Source of the DNA: Slackia piriformis YIT 12062
GTDB taxonomy: Bacteria > Actinomycetota > Coriobacteriia > Coriobacteriales > Eggerthellaceae
NCBI RefSeq assembly: GCF_000296445.1
Contig: NZ_JH815198.1
Coordinates: 670,975-734,974 of the forward strand
Length of the DNA: 64,000 nt
Direction of reading: 5' to 3'
Position 1 is the stretch's first letter, and the number at the start of each line of letters is the position of its first letter. The notes beneath the pieces are model-generated. The model made no database searches and was not told the origin of the DNA. It was given only the letters and a program-made list of their open reading frames with translations. Both the position numbers and the translations under genes were made by a program. Positions 17,373 to 26,110 of the stretch are shown in pieces.

Positions 17373-20219
17373 ATGGGAAACGATTACAAGCACTCGATGA
17401 ACCTGCCCAAGACGGATTTCGCCATGCGCGCGAATCTGCCCGAGAACGAGCCGAAGCGCTTGGAGAAGTGGGTCGAGCAGGATATCTATCACCGTGTTTT
17501 GGAGAAGAACAAAGATGGCGAGCCGTTCATCCTGCATGACGGCCCTCCGTATGCGAACGGACCGATTCACATCGGCCATGCTTTCAACAAGATCCTCAAG
17601 GACTTCGTTGTCAAATCGCATGCCCAGCGCGGTTATTTCACCCCTTACATCCCGGGCTGGGACTGCCATGGCCAGCCTATCGAGCACGAGGTGGAAAAGA
17701 AGCTCGGCACCGAGAAAATGAAAGAACTTCCGCAGTCCAAAGTGCGCGAACTCTGTCGCGAATGGGCCGAGCGCTTCGTCGATGTTCAGCGCGAGGGGTT
17801 CAAGCGCCTTGGCGTCAACGGCGATTGGGAGCATCCGTATCTGACGTTCCAGCCGAGCTTTGAGTCCGCCAACGTCGAAGTCTTCAAGCAGATGTACCTT
17901 GACGGCGCCGTCTATCGCGGCCGTAAGCCCATCCATTGGTGCAAGCATTGCCACACCGCCTTGGCCGAGGCCGAGATCGAGTATGCCGACGAGATGTCTC
18001 CGTCTATCTACGTGAACTTCAAGCTCAACGAGGTTCCCGAGCCGTTCGTCGCCGCGGGCGTCGATGCGGACAACGCGTACGTCTTGATCTGGACCACCAC
18101 GCCATGGACGCTTCCTGCGAATACGGCCGTGTCCTTCGGCCCAGAAATCAAATACTGCTTCGTCGAAGCCGACGGCAAGTTCATGCTGTTTGCCCATGAA
18201 ATGGTGGAGCAGGTTGCCGAAGTTGCCGGTTGGGAGAATTATCGCGTGGTCGAAGCCGACGGCGAGCCTGTTCTCATGAACGGCGACCAGTTCGGCGGCG
18301 TCACGTACGTGTGCCCGGTCATCCAGGACAACGTCGGACGCATCATCTGGGGCGACCACGTCACCCTCGATGCCGGCACCGGTGCGGTTCATACCGCTCC
18401 CGGCCACGGCGTAGACGACTACCTGGTGGGCCAGGAGTTCGGCATCGAAACCATCATGCCGGTCGATGACGATGGCCGCTTCACCGACTACGTGCCCTTG
18501 TTCGCTGGCCTTGACACCGATGAGGCCAATCCGAAGATCATCGAGTGGCTCAAAGAGCAGGGAACGCTTGTCGCGCACGTCGACATCAACCACAGCTATC
18601 CGCATTGCTGGCGCTGCCACCAGCCGGTCATCTTCCGCGCCACCGACCAGTGGTTCGTCTCCATGGAGAAGACCGGCCTGCGCGAGGCGGCTCTCGATCA
18701 GATCCGCAACCATGTCCAGTGGATTCCCGAGTGGGGCCAGAACCGCATCGGCGCCATGGTGGCCGACCGTCCCGACTGGTGCATTTCCCGCCAGCGCAGC
18801 TGGGGCGTGCCCATCCCCGTGTTCAAGTGCGCGAGCTGCGGCGAAACCGTTGCCGACGAATCCACCTTCGATGCCGTCATCGACCTTTTCAACACGGAGG
18901 GTGCCGACGCCTGGTTCACGAAGGACCCGAAGGAGTATCTGCCCGCTGGCACGTGCTGCCCGAAGTGCGGCTGCGAAGACGTGCTCCCCGAAAAGGACAT
19001 TCTCGACGTCTGGTGGGAGTCCGGCGTTTCTCACGTCGGCGTTTTGAAGCATCGCGCCGAGGCGGACGGCCTGCGTTGGCCTGCCGATATGTACCTCGAA
19101 GGCTCCGACCAGCATCGCGGTTGGTTCCAGAGCTCGCTCATGTGCGGCGTGGGCGCATTCGGCACTGCTCCGTACAAGAGCGTCATGTGCTGCGGTTTCA
19201 CCGTCGACGAAAACGGCGAGAAGATGTCCAAGTCCAAGGGCAACGGCATCGACCCGCGCGAGGTCACCGATAAATACGGCGCCGACGTGCTGCGTCTGTG
19301 GGTTGCTTCCACGGACTATTCTGTCGATGTCTCCATTGGCGATACCATCCTACAGCGCACCTCTGATGCCTACCGTCGTTTCCGCAACACCTTCCGCTTC
19401 CTGCTCGGCAATCTCGACGGATTCGACTGGGAGCGCGATTGCGTCGATTTCGCCGACCTCAAGCCCATCGACGTATGGGCCATGCTTCGTCTGCGCGAGG
19501 TGCTTCACGAGGTCGAGCGCGGCTATGACGAATACAAGTTCCATTCCGTCTTCCGCGCGCTGTACGACTACGTCATCACCGACCTGTCTGCCGTTTACAT
19601 GGACGTCATCAAGGACCGTCTGTATGCGGAGGCGCCGAACTCCGTGTCTCGCCGTGCCGCTCAGACCGTGCTCATGAACATCCTCGAGGTCATGGTTCGC
19701 GTCATGAGCCCGATTCTTTCGTTCACCTGCGATGAAGTCTGGGAGCATTACCCCGAGGCGGAGCGCAACCGCGAAGGCCGCCCCGTAAACGTTCAGCTCG
19801 CCGGCTGGCCGACCGACGCCGATTTTGCACCCGCGCTTCCCGAGGGCGAAGAGGCCCAGGCGTTCATGGATCGCTTCGATTCGCTGCTCGCTGCCCGCGA
19901 TGCGGTGACCAAGGCGCTTGAGGACGCGCGTACCGCCAAGACGGTCAACAAGAGCCAGGAGGCTGCGCTCACCATCGCCGCGCCTGAAGCCGCCTTCGAA
20001 GTTCTTTCGTCCGCCGATGCGGCTGACCTCGAAGAGCTCTTCATCGTGGCGAGCGTTGCTGTCGAGCGCGCAGAGGGCGAAGATATCGTTGTGACCGTGG
20101 AGAAGACCTCGGCGGACAAGTGCCCGCGTTGCTGGAACTATCGCGAGCTCGGCGGCAATGCAGCGCATCCCGACGTGTGCGCGCGTTGCGGCGAAGTTCT
20201 CGAGAGCATGGGCGAATAG
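17373..20219 (+). CDS. ileS: Isoleucyl-tRNA synthetase
   Basis: Class I synthetase charging tRNA-Ile. The 948-residue protein has the HIGH motif in GPIHIGHAFNK (about residues 64-74), an editing domain in the middle (TTTPWTLPANT), and KMSKSKGN near residue 620. A C-terminal zinc ribbon has two cysteine pairs (CPRCWNYREL and CARCGEVLE). ATG 17373 follows GGATCGGAG; an ATG seven codons earlier has no site. lspA and an rlu pseudouridine synthase follow closely, the common ileS-lspA-rluD operon order. Confidence 0.97.
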   Translation: MGNDYKHSMNLPKTDFAMRANLPENEPKRLEKWVEQDIYHRVLEKNKDGEPFILHDGPPYANGPIHIGHAFNKILKDFVVKSHAQRGYFTPYIPGWDCHGQPIEHEVEKKLGTEKMKELPQSKVRELCREWAERFVDVQREGFKRLGVNGDWEHPYLTFQPSFESANVEVFKQMYLDGAVYRGRKPIHWCKHCHTALAEAEIEYADEMSPSIYVNFKLNEVPEPFVAAGVDADNAYVLIWTTTPWTLPANTAVSFGPEIKYCFVEADGKFMLFAHEMVEQVAEVAGWENYRVVEADGEPVLMNGDQFGGVTYVCPVIQDNVGRIIWGDHVTLDAGTGAVHTAPGHGVDDYLVGQEFGIETIMPVDDDGRFTDYVPLFAGLDTDEANPKIIEWLKEQGTLVAHVDINHSYPHCWRCHQPVIFRATDQWFVSMEKTGLREAALDQIRNHVQWIPEWGQNRIGAMVADRPDWCISRQRSWGVPIPVFKCASCGETVADESTFDAVIDLFNTEGADAWFTKDPKEYLPAGTCCPKCGCEDVLPEKDILDVWWESGVSHVGVLKHRAEADGLRWPADMYLEGSDQHRGWFQSSLMCGVGAFGTAPYKSVMCCGFTVDENGEKMSKSKGNGIDPREVTDKYGADVLRLWVASTDYSVDVSIGDTILQRTSDAYRRFRNTFRFLLGNLDGFDWERDCVDFADLKPIDVWAMLRLREVLHEVERGYDEYKFHSVFRALYDYVITDLSAVYMDVIKDRLYAEAPNSVSRRAAQTVLMNILEVMVRVMSPILSFTCDEVWEHYPEAERNREGRPVNVQLAGWPTDADFAPALPEGEEAQAFMDRFDSLLAARDAVTKALEDARTAKTVNKSQEAALTIAAPEAAFEVLSSADAADLEELFIVASVAVERAEGEDIVVTVEKTSADKCPRCWNYRELGGNAAHPDVCARCGEVLESMGE

Positions 20220-20224
20220 CACCC

Positions 20225-20779
20225 ATGGTAGAAAGCCGACATTCTTCTTTGGCGAAAAGCGGCGGCGTCTTTGCGGGCGTCGCCGCCCTTTGGCTCGTCT
20301 TCGACCAGCTGACCAAGGCCTACTTCCAAAACGCATATACGCTCGGACAGGTTTCCGCTTCGGAGTTCGGGCTGTTCCGCTTTCGCCTCGTGCACAATAC
20401 CGGCGCCGCCTGGGGCATGTTCGGCGATTCGACGTTTGCTCTCGGCGTGGTTTCCGTTATCGTCTGCATCGCGGTCGTGCTGGTCTTTCTTTTCTACGAA
20501 CGGGCTTTCGGCCATCGGGCAACGGCGCTCGAGACCTGCGCTCTCTCGCTTATCGCCGCGGGGGGCATAGGCAACGCCATCGACCGTTTCGTCAACGGAT
20601 TCGTCGTCGATTTCATCGATCTGACGTTCATGGATTTTCCGGTGTTCAATATCGCCGATATCGGCGTGACCTGCGGGTTCGTTTTGCTCGTCATAGGTTA
20701 TCTGCTGGCAACGAGGCCGCCGTCTCGCAAGGAGACAACGCCGTCTTGTGATGAAGGGAAGGAGGCGCATCATGACTGA
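20225..20779 (+). CDS. lspA: Lipoprotein signal peptidase (signal peptidase II)
   Basis: Membrane aspartyl protease that removes signal peptides from prolipoproteins. The 184-residue protein has four membrane helices. The two catalytic aspartates lie in GGIGNAIDRF and FPVFNIADIGV, and FDQLTKAYF is in the first helix. The start is 5 bases after the ileS stop, so it is probably coupled. A substrate in this window is the lipoprotein encoded at 55289. Its end overlaps the next gene by 8 bases. Confidence 0.95.
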   Translation: MVESRHSSLAKSGGVFAGVAALWLVFDQLTKAYFQNAYTLGQVSASEFGLFRFRLVHNTGAAWGMFGDSTFALGVVSVIVCIAVVLVFLFYERAFGHRATALETCALSLIAAGGIGNAIDRFVNGFVVDFIDLTFMDFPVFNIADIGVTCGFVLLVIGYLLATRPPSRKETTPSCDEGKEAHHD

Positions 20780-21728
20780 TGTCGCGCACGTCGAGGTTGC
20801 TGCGGAGTACGCAGGCATGCGTCTCGATGCCTTCATGGCCGCCGAGGGCCTGTATCCCACGCGTTCTGCCGCCGCCAAGTGCATAGCGGATGGGTGCGCT
20901 GCGCTCAACGGGCGCATTGCGCGCAAGAGCGCGACCGTCGCTGCGGGAGACGTGCTCGAATACGAAACCTACGACGACCCTCATGCCCCCGTTCTTGAGG
21001 CGGTGGAAATCCCTCTCGATATTCGCTACGAGGACGAATACCTCATGGTGATATCGAAGCAGGCAGGGCTCGTATGCCACCCGTCCGATGGGCATTTCGG
21101 CGACACGCTCGTCAACGCTCTGATTGCGCACTGCGGTCGCGAGCATCTTTGCGACGTGCAGGGCGAGCAAGACCGTCTTGGCATCGTGCATCGTCTTGAC
21201 AAGGATACAAGCGGTCTTATGCTGTGCGCCAAAACCAACGAAGTCGGGCTTGCGCTCATGGAGGACATTCGGACGCGCGATGTGGACCGTCATTACCTGG
21301 CTCTCGTTCAAGGGTGGATTCCCCTTGAGACCGGCCTGGTGGACGCTCCGATTGCCCGCGGCGATCGCGACCGTCTGCGCATGAAGGTCTCCGACCGCGA
21401 CAATGCGCGACCCTCCATCACGACGTTCGAGGTCAAACGCCGTTTCGAGCCCGGCAAAAATGACGACGGCTATACGTTGATTGACTGCAAGCTGTATACA
21501 GGGCGCACGCATCAGATTCGCGTGCATATGGAATACATCAAGCATCCTTGCGTGGGCGACCCGGTATACGGATGGCAGAAGAAGGACAATCTGGGGCTCG
21601 ACCGCCAGTTTCTGCATTCGTACCGGCTGTCTTTCACGCATCCGATAACGGGGGAGCGTCTCGAGTTTGAAGACAGCCTGCCGCAAGACCTGCAGGAGGT
21701 CATCGACGAGCTCGAGGCTCGAGAATAG
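20772..21728 (+). CDS. RluA/RluD family 23S rRNA pseudouridine synthase
   Basis: The 318-residue protein has an N-terminal S4 RNA-binding domain (RLDAFMAAEG ... AALNGRIARKSATV). The catalytic domain carries the key aspartate in HRLDKDTSGLML, followed by YLALVQG and GRTHQIRVHM. RluD isomerises uridines in helix 69 of 23S rRNA; the exact target here cannot be fixed from sequence. GGGAAGGAGG precedes ATG 20772, which overlaps the lspA stop. Confidence 0.94.
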   Translation: MTDVAHVEVAAEYAGMRLDAFMAAEGLYPTRSAAAKCIADGCAALNGRIARKSATVAAGDVLEYETYDDPHAPVLEAVEIPLDIRYEDEYLMVISKQAGLVCHPSDGHFGDTLVNALIAHCGREHLCDVQGEQDRLGIVHRLDKDTSGLMLCAKTNEVGLALMEDIRTRDVDRHYLALVQGWIPLETGLVDAPIARGDRDRLRMKVSDRDNARPSITTFEVKRRFEPGKNDDGYTLIDCKLYTGRTHQIRVHMEYIKHPCVGDPVYGWQKKDNLGLDRQFLHSYRLSFTHPITGERLEFEDSLPQDLQEVIDELEARE

Positions 21729-21761
21729 CTTCGGGTTTGCAAGCAGGAAGAAGCGAGCGAA

Positions 21762-21793
21762 ATCAGGCTCCGAGGTGAAGCTCGGAGCCTGAT
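21762..21793. terminator. Bidirectional terminator between rlu and def
   Basis: A 13-bp perfect stem (ATCAGGCTCCGAG / CTCGGAGCCTGAT) with a 6-base loop lies between convergent genes. Short A and T runs flank it. Confidence 0.88.
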
Positions 21794-21849
21794 TTGTTAT
21801 GCGGACAAGACGTGCTTTTCTTCGGGCCGTGCGCGGTCTATCCGTTCGG

Positions 21850-22260
21850 TTAAATCACTACGCCGTTGCAGTGATCTATTTCGTGCTGGATGATTTGCGC
21901 GGTGAAGCCCGAAAACGTCTCCACGTGCTCTTTGAACGAGAGGTCGAGGTAACGAACGCGAACGGTGCGGAACCGCTTTGCGCTGCGGCGGCCGACGAGC
22001 GAAAGGCAACCTTCGTCGGTTTCGTAAGGGGTCTTCGCCTCTGCAATCTCGGGATTGATCATGGCTCGCGCCGCGCCGTCGTCCACAAAGACGATGATTC
22101 GCTTGCGCTGCCCGATCATATTGGCCGCCATGCCTACGCATTCATGCGTGTGGGCCGCCAAGGTGTCAAGCAGGTCGTAGGCGATCGGCAGGTCAGCAGA
22201 CGTTGCCGTCTCGCTCGGTTGCTGCAGGAAGAATTCGTTTTTCATAATGGGGCGGATCAT
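21850..22260 (-). CDS. def: Small peptide deformylase-family protein
   Basis: Metallohydrolase family that removes the formyl group from nascent proteins. The 136-residue protein is short for the family. It keeps motif 2 EGCLS (metal cysteine) and motif 3 QHEIDH (two metal histidines and the catalytic glutamate). In motif 1 the usual GxGxAAxQ reads CVGMAANMIG, so the conserved glutamine is methionine. I recall the same substitution in a group of short clostridial deformylases, so it is probably subfamily-typical, but activity is uncertain. The start is taken at 22260 behind GAAGGAAAG. No fmt is adjacent. Confidence 0.88.
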   Translation of the reverse strand: MIRPIMKNEFFLQQPSETATSADLPIAYDLLDTLAAHTHECVGMAANMIGQRKRIIVFVDDGAARAMINPEIAEAKTPYETDEGCLSLVGRRSAKRFRTVRVRYLDLSFKEHVETFSGFTAQIIQHEIDHCNGVVI

Positions 22261-22411
22261 CGGTTCGTTTCGCTTTCCTTCGTTGGCGTAGCGGCATCTG
22301 CGCACGGTTTGTACAGCGCCGTTTCCATGGTACCATCGCTTGATGAGCGGCGGTATCGACTGCTGCTCACGCGAAGAAGGCTCGAAGGAAAAACCGAAGG
22401 AGGTGAGGCGA

Positions 22412-22626
22412 GTGTCGAAGAAGACGAAGCGCGCGAACCGCGTGCCGAAAACGGGTGCCGTCTGGCATCTGTCGGCCGAAGAGGCCACGCTGGCGAAAAA
22501 GCCGCGCTACAACGGTTACGCATGTGGCCACGGCGCGCATGGCGATGCGAAATACAATCGCGCCAAGCAAAAGCGCGTATGGAAAAGCGTCATCAGGCAG
22601 GAAGGGACCCCGCGGGGTCCCTTCCT
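22412..22626 (+). CDS. Small basic protein frame without a stop codon, running into a hairpin; candidate ribosome-rescue factor
   Basis: A GTG start follows a perfect extended Shine-Dalgarno (AAGGAGGTGA, 22397-22406). The frame encodes a basic protein (about 16 Lys/Arg in the first 64 residues) with RYNGYACGHGAHGDAKYNRA at about 32-51. No stop occurs before or within the perfect hairpin at 22599-22626, where codons 63-72 read EGTPRGPFL. The frame stays open past the rpsO promoter. The other two forward frames are also stop-free through 22700, so a simple frameshift error would not supply a stop. Transcripts ending or cut at the hairpin would be non-stop mRNAs, as known for E. coli arfA and Bacillus brfA. 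Sequence kinship to those proteins is not evident. The end given is that of the hairpin. Confidence 0.62.
22599..22626 (+). terminator. Perfect palindrome hairpin inside the non-stop frame
   Basis: The arms AGGAAGGGACCCCG and CGGGGTCCCTTCCT form a perfect 28-base palindrome, so a stem of about 12 bp with a 4-base loop. It is followed by a pyrimidine-rich tract (CTCGTTCGTCTTCTCGTTT). It could be an intrinsic terminator or an RNase III-type cleavage site. It lies within an open frame rather than after a stop. Confidence 0.8.
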
Positions 22627-22674
22627 CGTTCGTCTTCTCGTTTGCGACTTTTCCGCCGAAGTTCGGAGCCGTCA

Positions 22675-22702
22675 TTGCATTCGTCTCTTGCTCTGCTATA
22701 CT
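22675..22702 (+). promoter_or_regulatory. Candidate rpsO promoter
   Basis: TTGCAT (22675-22680) and TATACT (22697-22702) are spaced by 16 bases, 135 bases upstream of rpsO. This leaves room for a structured leader of the kind through which S15 represses its own mRNA. Confidence 0.5.
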
Positions 22703-22836
22703 GCAAAAGTTGCATTTTTACCCGCGGCTTCGCTGTCACGCACCACCTGCATGGCATCGCAGCTTTGGGCGTATTCGCAAAACGGCGCGCAACAGCCGTG
22801 TAAAGCGGAGGTATTCCGCAGGAAAGGTGGAGCACT

Positions 22837-23124
22837 ATGGCTACCAAGCTCAGCATCAGCAAAGAGCGCACCGCAGAGCTCGTCAAGGAGTTCGGCAAGG
22901 GCGAGGGCGATTCCGGCAGCGCAGAGGTTCAGGTCGCTATCCTGTCCGAGCGCATCCGCAACCTCACCGAGCATCTCAAGACCCACAAGAAGGACAACCA
23001 CACCCGTCGTGGTCTCATGATGCTCATCGGTAAGCGCCGCGGCATGTTGAAGTACATCAAGAATCGCGACATCGAAGAGTACCGCGCTCTCATCAAGAAG
23101 CTCGGTATCCGCGACAACATCTAG
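22837..23124 (+). CDS. rpsO: Small ribosomal subunit protein uS15
   Basis: A 30S primary-binding protein contacting 16S rRNA helices 20-22 and 23S helix 34. The 95-residue protein matches bacterial S15: [36 protein letters not shown] and [24 protein letters not shown] precedes the ATG. pnp follows after a terminator, the classic rpsO-pnp pair. Confidence 0.98.
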
Positions 23125-23133
23125 CCAAGCATT

Positions 23134-23155
23134 AAGCCCGCTCGCGCGGGCTTTT
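23134..23155 (+). terminator. Terminator between rpsO and pnp
   Basis: AAGCCCGC / GCGGGCTT stem with a 4-base loop (TCGC) and a short T run. It may be leaky and let some rpsO transcripts continue into pnp. Confidence 0.85.
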
Positions 23156-23249
23156 GCATATTTCGGTCGATGCGGGCAGGGGCCCGCATTGCTCGAGAGG
23201 CCCTGTGAAAAGCGCAAGGCCCGAAGAAGAAGAGAAAGAACGATACTCT

Positions 23250-25472
23250 ATGGAAAAAATTTCGACGAGCTTCGAGCTGTACGGTAAGGAGTACCGCCTC
23301 GAAACCGGCGAGCTTGCCAAGCAGGCCACCGGTGCTGTGCTGGTCACCCAGGGCGAAACTACTTGCCTGGTGACCGCCGTCGTATCCAAGGAACAGAAGG
23401 ACTATGACTTCTTTCCTCTGACGGTGGACTTCATCGAGAAGATGTACGCCGTCGGCCGCATTCCCGGCGGCTACCTGAAGCGCGAGGCGAAGCCTTCCGA
23501 CAAAGGCACGCTGACTGCTCGCATGATCGACCGTCCTATCCGTCCTGGTTTCGCCGATGGCTTCAAGCAGGAAGTCCACGTCGTCGCCACCACGCTTGCG
23601 TGCGACGGCCAGAACCCGCCCGACTGCATCTGCGTCGGCGGCGCTTCTGCAGCGCTTCTGTGCGGCGGTACGCCGTTTGACGGCCCGGCCGCCTGCGTGC
23701 GCATCGCCCGCGACAAAGAAACCGGCGAATTCATCGTCAACCCCACCTATGCCGAGCAGGAGAATTCCGATCTCGAGCTCACCATTGCCGGCACCCGAGA
23801 CTACATCTCCATGGTGGAGGCGGGCGCCGAAGAGGTGACTGAGGAAGATATGCTCGCCGCCATGGAATTCGGCCAGCAGGCCATCGCCGCTTTCTGCGAG
23901 AAGCAGGCGGAGTTTTTGGCCATGGTCGCCCCCGAGCCCAAGGAATATCCCGTTCATGCGGCGGATCCCTGCATCGCCGAACGCGTTAACGCCCACTTCG
24001 ACGAGATGAGCGCGGCGCTTAAAGATGCCGACAAGCTTTCCCGCATGGGCAAGGTCGAAGAGCTCAAGGCGTCCATCAAGGAGAACGACTTCTCCGAAGA
24101 GGAGCGCGAAGCGTGGAAGAGCGACATCGCAGCCGCCTGCAAAGCCCTCGAGAAGCAGGCCATGCGCGCCATGGTCATCGAGACGGGCGAGCGTGCCGAC
24201 GGCCGCAGCGCCGATGAGATCCGACCGCTCTATATCCGCCCGGGATATCTGCCCCGCGTCCACGGCTCCGGCCTGTTCCAGCGCGGTCAGACCCAGGCGC
24301 TATCCGTGTGCACCTTGGGCCTTCTCAACGAGGCGCAGCGTCTTGACACCATCGATCCGCAGGAGTCCAAGCGCTACATGCACCAATACAACTTCCCGCC
24401 GTATTGCACGGGCGAAGTGGGCCGCATGGGCGCTCCCAAACGTCGTGAAATCGGTCACGGCGCTTTGGCCGAGCGAGCGATTCTGCCGATTCTGCCCTCC
24501 GAGGACGAATTCCCCTACGCCATTCGCGTGGTCTCTGAAATCCTCGAATCCAATGGCTCGTCTTCCATGGCTTCCACCTGCGGTTCTACGCTCGCTCTGA
24601 TGGATGCCGGCGTGCCCATCAAGGCTCCCGTCTCAGGCATCGCCATGGGCTTGATCAAAGAGGGCGACGACGTCGTCATTCTCTCCGACATCCAGGGCCT
24701 CGAGGACTTCCTCGGCGACATGGACTTCAAAGTGTGCGGCACCGCCAACGGCATCACGGCGCTTCAGATGGACAACAAGGCCAAGGGTCTTTCCACCGAG
24801 ATTCTCGGTCGTGCTCTTCAGCAGGCCAAGGAAGGCCGTGCCCACATCCTCTCCGCCATGCTCGGCGAAATCGCTGAGCCCCGCGCCGAGCTGCGCGACA
24901 CCGCTCCTCGTATCGAGACCATCCATATTCCGGTCGAAAAGATTCGCGAGGTCATCGGCAAAGGTGGCGAAACCATCCGCGGCATCCAGGATTCCACGGG
25001 TGCAAGCATCGAAATCCAGGAAGACGGCACGGTGCATATCGCGGCTGTCGAGCAGGAGGCCGGTCGCGCTGCAAGGGCTGCTGTCGAGGCTATCGTCAAA
25101 GAGCCCGAAGTCGGTGAAATCTACGAGGGCCAGGTCGTGGGCATCCAGACCTTCGGCGCCTTCGTCAAGCTCACGCCTTCTAAGGACGGCTTGCTGCATA
25201 TCTCTCGCGTGGCCAACGGTCGCGTCGGTCAAGTCGAGGACGTGCTCAACGTGGGCGATACCGTCAAGGTAGAGGTCATCGAGATCGATCCGAAGTCCGG
25301 CAAGATTTCTCTTGACCGCCTCGACAAGCCTGAGGCTCCCGAGGGTAGCGCTCCTGCGCCTGCTCGCGCTCCGCGTGGCGAGGGTCGTCGCGAGCGCTCC
25401 GATCGTCGTCCCGGCCGCGCCAACCGCGAGGCGAATTCGGGTGATGGCCGCACGCCTCGTCGCCGTCACTAG
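23250..25472 (+). CDS. pnp: Polyribonucleotide nucleotidyltransferase (PNPase)
   Basis: Phosphorolytic 3'-to-5' exoribonuclease of the RNA decay machinery. The 740-residue protein has two RNase PH domains, the first with GRIPGGYLKREAKPSDK and the second with RADGRSADEIRPL and SNGSSSMASTCG. A KH domain (VIGKGGETIRGI), an S1 domain (GAFVKLTPSKDGLLHIS) and an Arg-rich basic tail (about 710-740) follow. It probably works with RNase Y at 5307. ATG 23250 has only a weak purine site (AGAGAAAG). Confidence 0.97.
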   Translation: MEKISTSFELYGKEYRLETGELAKQATGAVLVTQGETTCLVTAVVSKEQKDYDFFPLTVDFIEKMYAVGRIPGGYLKREAKPSDKGTLTARMIDRPIRPGFADGFKQEVHVVATTLACDGQNPPDCICVGGASAALLCGGTPFDGPAACVRIARDKETGEFIVNPTYAEQENSDLELTIAGTRDYISMVEAGAEEVTEEDMLAAMEFGQQAIAAFCEKQAEFLAMVAPEPKEYPVHAADPCIAERVNAHFDEMSAALKDADKLSRMGKVEELKASIKENDFSEEEREAWKSDIAAACKALEKQAMRAMVIETGERADGRSADEIRPLYIRPGYLPRVHGSGLFQRGQTQALSVCTLGLLNEAQRLDTIDPQESKRYMHQYNFPPYCTGEVGRMGAPKRREIGHGALAERAILPILPSEDEFPYAIRVVSEILESNGSSSMASTCGSTLALMDAGVPIKAPVSGIAMGLIKEGDDVVILSDIQGLEDFLGDMDFKVCGTANGITALQMDNKAKGLSTEILGRALQQAKEGRAHILSAMLGEIAEPRAELRDTAPRIETIHIPVEKIREVIGKGGETIRGIQDSTGASIEIQEDGTVHIAAVEQEAGRAARAAVEAIVKEPEVGEIYEGQVVGIQTFGAFVKLTPSKDGLLHISRVANGRVGQVEDVLNVGDTVKVEVIEIDPKSGKISLDRLDKPEAPEGSAPAPARAPRGEGRRERSDRRPGRANREANSGDGRTPRRRH

Positions 25473-25604
25473 GCACTATTTGATTCAAAGCGTCCATGTT
25501 TCGAGTCTTCGGGGCACGGACGCTTGAAAAACGAAGTGGCACGTTATATTATGTCCACTTGCATGTTTTTATGGCAGTTTGTATACATGAAGGAGTCTAC
25601 CGAA

Positions 25605-25850
25605 ATGGCAGTTAAGATTCGTCTCGCCCGCCATGGCGCAAAGAAGAAGCCCATCTATCGCGTGGTCGTGGCTGATGCCCATAGCCCTCGTGACGGTCGT
25701 TATATCGAGCAGGTTGGCCGCTACAACCCCAACACCGATCCCTCTGAGATCACCCTTGACCTTGAGAAGGTTGAGAAGTGGATTGCAAACGGCGCTCAGC
25801 CGACCGATACCGTCAAGCGTCTCATCGAAGCCGCTAAAAAGGCTCAGTAG
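25605..25850 (+). CDS. rpsP: Small ribosomal subunit protein bS16
   Basis: An 81-residue protein with the S16 signature [20 protein letters not shown] and [21 protein letters not shown] precedes ATG 25605. It is the first gene of the conserved rpsP-khpA-rimM-trmD ribosome and tRNA maturation operon. Upstream (25473-25604) lies a weak hairpin (AAGCGTCC ... GGACGCTT) that may end pnp transcription. Confidence 0.98.
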
Positions 25851-25852
25851 CA

Positions 25853-26110
25853 ATGAACCGGGCGTCATCCGACATCGTCGCCCTGGTGCGTGAAATAGTC
25901 GATCCGCTCGTCGAGGATAAGGAAGCGGTCGAAGTGACCTCCTCCTTCTCTGAAGACGGAACAGAGCGTGTTGAAATTCGCGTCGCTGCCGATGATGCCG
26001 GCAAGGTCATCGGCCGTCAGGGTCGCGTCATTAAATCCATTCGTGTGCTTGCACGTGCTGCAGCATGCACCGACGGCGGAGCCGTCGAAGTCGAGCTTGT
26101 CGAGGACTAA
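25853..26110 (+). CDS. khpA: KH-domain RNA-binding protein KhpA
   Basis: An 85-residue single-KH protein with the GxxG loop in VIGRQGRVIKSIRVL. KhpA usually pairs with KhpB (Jag) and binds many RNAs, affecting cell growth and division in Gram-positives. khpB is not in this window. The start lies 2 bases after the rpsP stop and the gene precedes rimM, which is the standard order. Confidence 0.95.
   Translation: MNRASSDIVALVREIVDPLVEDKEAVEVTSSFSEDGTERVEIRVAADDAGKVIGRQGRVIKSIRVLARAAACTDGGAVEVELVED

Follow-up and report, generated by a model that had tools for sequence, protein, structure and literature searches.

How does a gene that reaches a strong hairpin before any stop codon yield a functional protein, and what might that protein do? 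These questions are raised by a locus in a 64-kb stretch of the Slackia piriformis genome (64,000 nucleotides, "the window" below). The preliminary description of this DNA had noted an extended Shine–Dalgarno (SD) motif and a GTG-started frame for a basic protein, entering a 28-base palindrome without a stop, and this layout was confirmed at positions 22397–22626 (Table 1). The translation opens VSKKTKRANRVPKTGAVWHLSAEEATLAKKPRYNGYACGHGAHGDAKYNRAKQKRVWKSVIRQEGTPRGPF, the palindrome starts ~62 codons into the frame, and the first in-frame stop lies far beyond it. In the ORF list of the window, the gene is enclosed in an ORF at 22340–23020. As had also been described, all three forward frames are free of stops from 22412 to beyond 22700, the other two being likewise open in this GC-rich stretch.

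Table 1 Positions of the non-stop gene, its neighbors, and related features (positions in the window unless a locus is named)
Feature	Position	Strand or context	Basis or scope
Extended Shine–Dalgarno motif AAGGAGGTGA	22397-22406	+	sequence
Start codon GTG	22412-22414	+	sequence
Non-stop coding region, basic protein, final codons within the hairpin	22412-22626	+	relatives, alignment A1, dN/dS
In-frame perfect palindrome AGGAAGGGACCCCGCGGGGTCCCTTCCT, 28 bases, 12-bp stem, loop of 4	22599-22626	+	
Continuation of the open frame, unconserved, up to the first stop (TGA, 23018-23020)	22627-23020	+	
Pseudouridine synthase with S4 domain	from 20748		Pfam
Peptide deformylase	21850-22245	opposite strand	Pfam
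rpsO	from 22837	downstream of hairpin	Pfam
Stop-bearing homologue	L119: 1380-1595	minus	
Stop-bearing homologue	L121: 1255-1458	minus	
ArfB-like protein, 124 aa, GGQ, basic tail	L169: 1498-1869	minus	also in 17 further family genomes

A protein search across 138 Eggerthellaceae genomes, in which all strong-match loci were read, yielded 57 intact loci in 55 genomes. These carriers span 18 of 48 genera in the family, and relatives were found, among other named records, in Slackia, Adlercreutzia, Enterorhabdus, and Candidatus Aphodovivens. Profile searches added more distant members in two other families of the order; matches in the order-wide search came from 66 of 395 genomes, among them a spurious one (G316), a remnant (G070), and a damaged copy (G105). 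Outside of the family and order, no convincing relative was found in a phylum sample of 326 genomes, and one scan of viral contigs gave no relative. The marginal matches in G316, G548, and G361 were rejected, as their loci read as unrelated frames.

We classified 66 loci, i.e., 58 from Eggerthellaceae (one damaged copy included) and 8 from the other two families, with two remnants (L084 and L124) excluded. For 64 of these 66 loci, including the damaged L080, no in-frame stop precedes the 3′ end of the hairpin. The other two frames, read from the start codon to the hairpin end, contain stops in 27 and 30 of the 64 non-stop loci. Protein, in-frame hairpin, and missing stop are hence conserved together, which is the association that the preliminary description had singled out for a search, and we consider this conserved non-stop architecture firmly established; as the loci are related, and some identical, the counts do not represent independent events. 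The two exceptions are distant homologues from another family (L119 and L121), whose frames close with a normal TAG stop and contain no hairpin, so that the non-stop trait is not universal among homologues. An ordinary stop ahead of the hairpin had been named at the outset as evidence against the proposal: in these two homologues the stop is indeed seen, but not a hairpin in the frame. Both of their genomes match the tmRNA family over the cut-off, with a tmRNA confirmed by ARAGORN for that of L119 only.

Some individual loci are special cases. At L070, the hairpin picked is a second, downstream one, and the frame is open beyond it. In two genomes the non-stop gene occurs twice (L010 and L074 in G079, L009 and L083 in G080), and the L083 copy has a degraded hairpin with the frame open past it. 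In the remnants L084 and L124, the N-terminal part is gone and the terminator hairpin is retained, and L084 has gained an in-frame stop. By eye, the L084 remnant adjoins a tRNA-like stretch. Upstream of the gene, 51 of the 58 Eggerthellaceae loci show AGGAGGT at a spacing of 6–9 nt from the assigned start, start codons having been chosen partly by this SD motif. In the Eggerthellaceae alignment A1, which omits L015 and L074 (duplicate translations) and L080 (internal deletion), columns W18, P31, N34, G41, G44, and R50 are invariant, and the C-terminal part of the protein is basic, i.e., rich in lysine and arginine.

Substitution patterns show that the protein is under purifying selection. Across pairs with moderate synonymous divergence, dN/dS in the core had a median of 0.30, with 98% of 810 pairs below 1, and the whole-body value was 0.37 (696 pairs). 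The frame is thus not neutral, its ratio being ~0.3 rather than the value of 1 that the preliminary description had associated with a failure of its proposal; an unconserved reading frame was not found, and it is the sequence past the hairpin that lacks conservation. For a random draw of 60 close pairs, median DNA identity rose from 0.41 upstream to 0.77 in the SD region (the last 15 nt ahead of the start codon) and 0.79 in the core; the hairpin reached 0.71, and past it the value fell to 0.37. The conserved block thus extends from the SD motif to the hairpin, which speaks for a product that ends there and against regular read-through as far as the distal stop. The residues FLVRLL, which had been pointed out just after the hairpin, are present in the window and not conserved among relatives.

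These observations bear on three rival explanations. In one, the gene is an ordinary one ending downstream, with the polymerase often passing the hairpin and translation stopping at the distal stop. The window frame, open to 23018, and the weak T tail of its hairpin would agree with this; yet the first stop lies anywhere from 4 to ~166 codons past the hairpin (excluding L070, where the hairpin was mispicked, and L067 and L123, whose frames run off the available sequence), and identity after the hairpin is at background (0.37 vs 0.41 upstream), and we consider this explanation very improbable. Still less credible is that the hairpin is an attenuator of rpsO and the frame its leader peptide. Such an arrangement is suggested by the position of rpsO in the window, but only 3 of 66 loci have this gene downstream, which refutes attenuation for the family as a whole; 64 loci had more than 1.2 kb of downstream sequence, and neighborhoods vary between loci. 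The presence of three open frames in a GC-rich stretch could also indicate a chance frame, or a stop removed by a sequencing or assembly error. This is refuted by conservation, the layout being repeated in 64 of 66 loci and the protein under purifying selection, and chance or error retains practically no probability.

We evaluated the hairpin itself as a terminator in the window and among relatives. The RNA fold of 22580–22645 was predicted at −30 kcal/mol (z = −3.3). On the + strand of the 64-kb window, with G-T pairs allowed, 14 uninterrupted stems of at least 10 bp were detected, compared with 4.6 on average in 10 shuffles. Stems of 12 bp or longer containing 8 or more G-C pairs numbered 8, the window hairpin among them, vs 0.3 in shuffles. 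A looser terminator scan of 21500–23700 gave 6 sites vs 2.3 in shuffles, with the window hairpin strongest, and no sigma-70-like promoter was obtained from a scan of the same region. The T-rich tail of the window hairpin is interrupted (CGTTCGTCTT) and poorer than the tails of many relatives. A search with Rfam over 20000–26000 returned one match only, far under the gathering score of its family. Separately, TATAAT-like hexamers occur ~26–50 nt upstream of the start, just before the SD motif, in a number of relatives; they score at least 9 in 10 of 65 loci, are consensus matches only, and none is convincing in the window. Such hexamers would fit a short single-gene mRNA. An 11-bp uninterrupted hairpin also lies at 22344–22369, 43 nt upstream of the start codon; it is not conserved in relatives and was set aside, as stems of at least 8 bp are found upstream in 15 of 65 loci, where they differ in sequence and place.

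Across the 64 non-stop loci, the in-frame hairpin starts 52–89 codons past the start codon and has a median stem of 11 bp; at least four T are found within the 8-base tail window in 51 loci. Hairpin sequences differ among lineages at the same place (e.g., L118/L120, L163, L082, and L059) and are still paired and in frame, with 29 distinct sequences among 58 loop-4 hairpins. For these 29 hairpins, 287 of 290 pairs (ten per hairpin) are formed, compared with a share that averaged 69% and never exceeded 81% when the arms were re-dealt 500 times; since hairpins were selected for pairing in the locus classification, only this re-dealt-arms control counts for covariation. At some stem positions, G-C, C-G, A-T, and T-A all occur. 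Changes on both arms that keep the pairs indicate selection on hairpin pairing, and we propose the in-frame palindrome as an intrinsic terminator, possibly also serving as an RNase III site.

The window protein matched no Pfam and no NCBIfam family, and Pfam searches with 29 members gave single weak matches only. Its translation contains no GGQ, and no match to the RF-1 domain (PF00472) was found in Pfam. The predicted fold was poor (pLDDT 62, pTM 0.33), which is neutral for any reading of the gene and too uncertain to support a fold search.

Since the putative function concerns ribosome rescue, we surveyed rescue pathways across the 138 family genomes. In the window genome, a tmRNA was detected (158 bits; ARAGORN tag GKAKTQSAPALAMAA), with SmpB encoded 1.2 kb away. 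Overall, 120 of 138 genomes, the window genome included, displayed a tmRNA over the cut-off; matches under it were mostly tRNA-like, and a control search gave a weak signal even in archaea. Among the 55 carriers of the non-stop gene, 45 had a tmRNA over the cut-off, and the remaining ten were assemblies in at least 100 contigs. SmpB was found in 38 of 41 relatives. For L158 (genome G343), a tmRNA was found with Rfam's model and none with ARAGORN.

Alternative rescue systems were scarcer. ArfA (PF03889) was detected over its cut-off in none of the 138 genomes, with two weak matches, both in non-carriers, and the RqcH domain (NFACT-R) likewise in none, with Bacillus subtilis positive as a control. 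The NCBIfam ArfB model gave no match over its cut-off in the 138 genomes and 12 partial matches, two of which were read fully and proved to be GGQ-bearing ArfB-like proteins. A search with one of these two as query gave matches in 18 of 138 genomes at E ≤ 2e-41, all others being at 3e-20 or weaker and mostly frames of RF1/RF2 length. The window genome had no match to ArfA, the ArfB model, or the RqcH domain, and only two RF1/RF2-level matches in the ArfB-like search. As the L169 ArfB-like protein scores 78 bits vs a model cut-off of 100, standard annotation may miss it. None of the 18 genomes with an ArfB-like protein carried the non-stop gene vs 55 of 120 without one (Fisher P = 5e-5), and the same pattern was seen by genus (0 of 7 vs 18 of 41, P = 0.036); these statistics ignore phylogeny, and the exclusion between the two is suggestive. 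Neither an intact non-stop gene nor an ArfB-like protein was found in 65 of 138 genomes, including three in which a remnant or damaged copy remains. This implies, with incomplete assemblies allowed for, that parts of the family do without such a backup.

Taken together, the likeliest function is that of a tmRNA-silenced backup ribosome-rescue factor, working in the manner of ArfA and BrfA, to which we assign a probability of roughly 0.77. The mRNA of the non-stop gene would lack a stop codon because transcription ends, or RNase III cuts, at the in-frame hairpin. With tmRNA–SmpB working, ribosomes on this message would be rescued and the product tagged and destroyed; with trans-translation overloaded or missing, an untagged protein of ~70 residues would build up. 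This small basic protein may then free ribosomes that are stuck at the 3′ ends of broken mRNAs, with its Lys/Arg-rich C-terminal part entering the empty mRNA channel, and would recruit a release factor, as it has no GGQ of its own. Hairpin termination, tmRNA tagging, ribosome binding, and release-factor recruitment are the steps that we infer. Going by BrfA and ArfA, the recruitment would be expected to be specific for the species of the release factor (PMC6881298). The reading draws on the non-stop architecture and its conservation, the selection on the gene, the presence of tmRNA and SmpB in the host with no ArfA or RqcH detected, the variable neighboring genes, the exclusion with the ArfB-like protein, and the BrfA-like size and design. 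Counting against it are the lack of a sequence relation to ArfA, the stop-bearing homologues L119 and L121, the 65 of 138 genomes with neither gene, the weak T tail in the window, and the lack of a promoter in the scan.

The main competing possibility is that the gene is genuinely non-stop and silenced by tmRNA, and its product does not rescue ribosomes but instead has a regulatory role, acts in ribosome hibernation, or is some other small protein produced upon failure of trans-translation. The architecture argues only that expression depends on the state of trans-translation, and neither a known family nor a known fold was matched. Against this, arfA and brfA, the characterized genes of the same design, encode rescue factors according to PMC6881298 and PMC8012679, and a rescue role also fits the basic C-terminus and the pattern of exclusion with ArfB-like proteins, so that a non-rescue product appears unlikely, if well ahead of the three explanations above.

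The rescue-factor reading would bear on how trans-translation is backed up in Actinobacteriota without ArfB. In a survey of 15,259 genomes, as reported in PMC11633108, arfA was found in 1, arfB in 2,245, and rqcH in 0 of 3,213 Actinobacteriota. The non-stop gene family provides a concrete candidate for such a backup. A review (PMC8012679) foresaw small factors recruiting release factors that sequence similarity may miss, and the present family suggests a homology-free search rule, i.e., a conserved frame with an in-frame terminator and no stop. The stop-bearing homologues L119 and L121 offer a natural contrast for the role of the missing stop. No non-stop rescue factor in Coriobacteriia was found in the literature searched, a scope that leaves out preprints and most subscription journals.

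Among known systems, ArfB (YaeJ) shares with the window protein the backup rescue role proposed here, and differs in having its own GGQ hydrolase domain. ArfT of Francisella is described in PMC6299226 as a 40-residue protein which acts with RF1 or RF2, without a terminator or RNase III site before its stop; compared by description, it resembles the window protein in being small, and differs in length and in this missing terminator. Burroughs and Aravind describe relatives of ArfT, and no family like the non-stop one is named in the available portion of their text (PMC6514570). The arfA gene (yhdL) of Escherichia coli has 72 codons and a stem-loop that acts as a transcription terminator or as an RNase III cleavage site (PMC8012679). 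The resemblance lies in the ~70 residues and the in-frame hairpin giving a non-stop mRNA, the latter seen in 64 of 66 loci here. In contrast, no sequence relation was found: hhalign of alignment A3 against the single E. coli ArfA sequence gave a probability of 0.2%, PF03889 matched neither the window protein nor 29 members at E up to 1, and the window protein lacks the KGKGS motif that PMC6299226 names. The original label "ArfA-like" therefore holds for the logic of the gene and not for its ancestry.

BrfA is a further close counterpart. According to PMC6881298, it comprises 71 codons, an intrinsic terminator lies within the reading frame, and the product is ~62 aa long; together with arfA, brfA is one of the two characterized genes of this design, both encoding rescue factors (PMC6881298, PMC8012679). 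Its origin is disputed, being independent in PMC6881298 and homologous to ArfA in PMC11633108. The window gene resembles it, as described in PMC6881298, in its ~70 codons, basic C-terminal region, terminator within the coding region, Gram-positive host, and narrow distribution. A terminator-like hairpin after some 50–90 codons, with termination predicted, is likewise found across the 64 non-stop loci (52–89 codons). The comparison was made by description only, and profile searching of PDB chains (E ≤ 10) yielded three unrelated proteins and no rescue-factor chain, BrfA not being confirmed among the chains searched. The hosts differ in phylum, and in that Bacillus subtilis has an RqcH domain, which matched none of the 138 Eggerthellaceae genomes. 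Overall, the rescue factor would be a new, apparently unrelated variant of a known design, and we lean toward a separate Actinomycetota family of non-stop rescue factors silenced by trans-translation, with some lineages stop-bearing and others using an ArfB-like hydrolase instead, which would make it the third independent invention after ArfA and BrfA.
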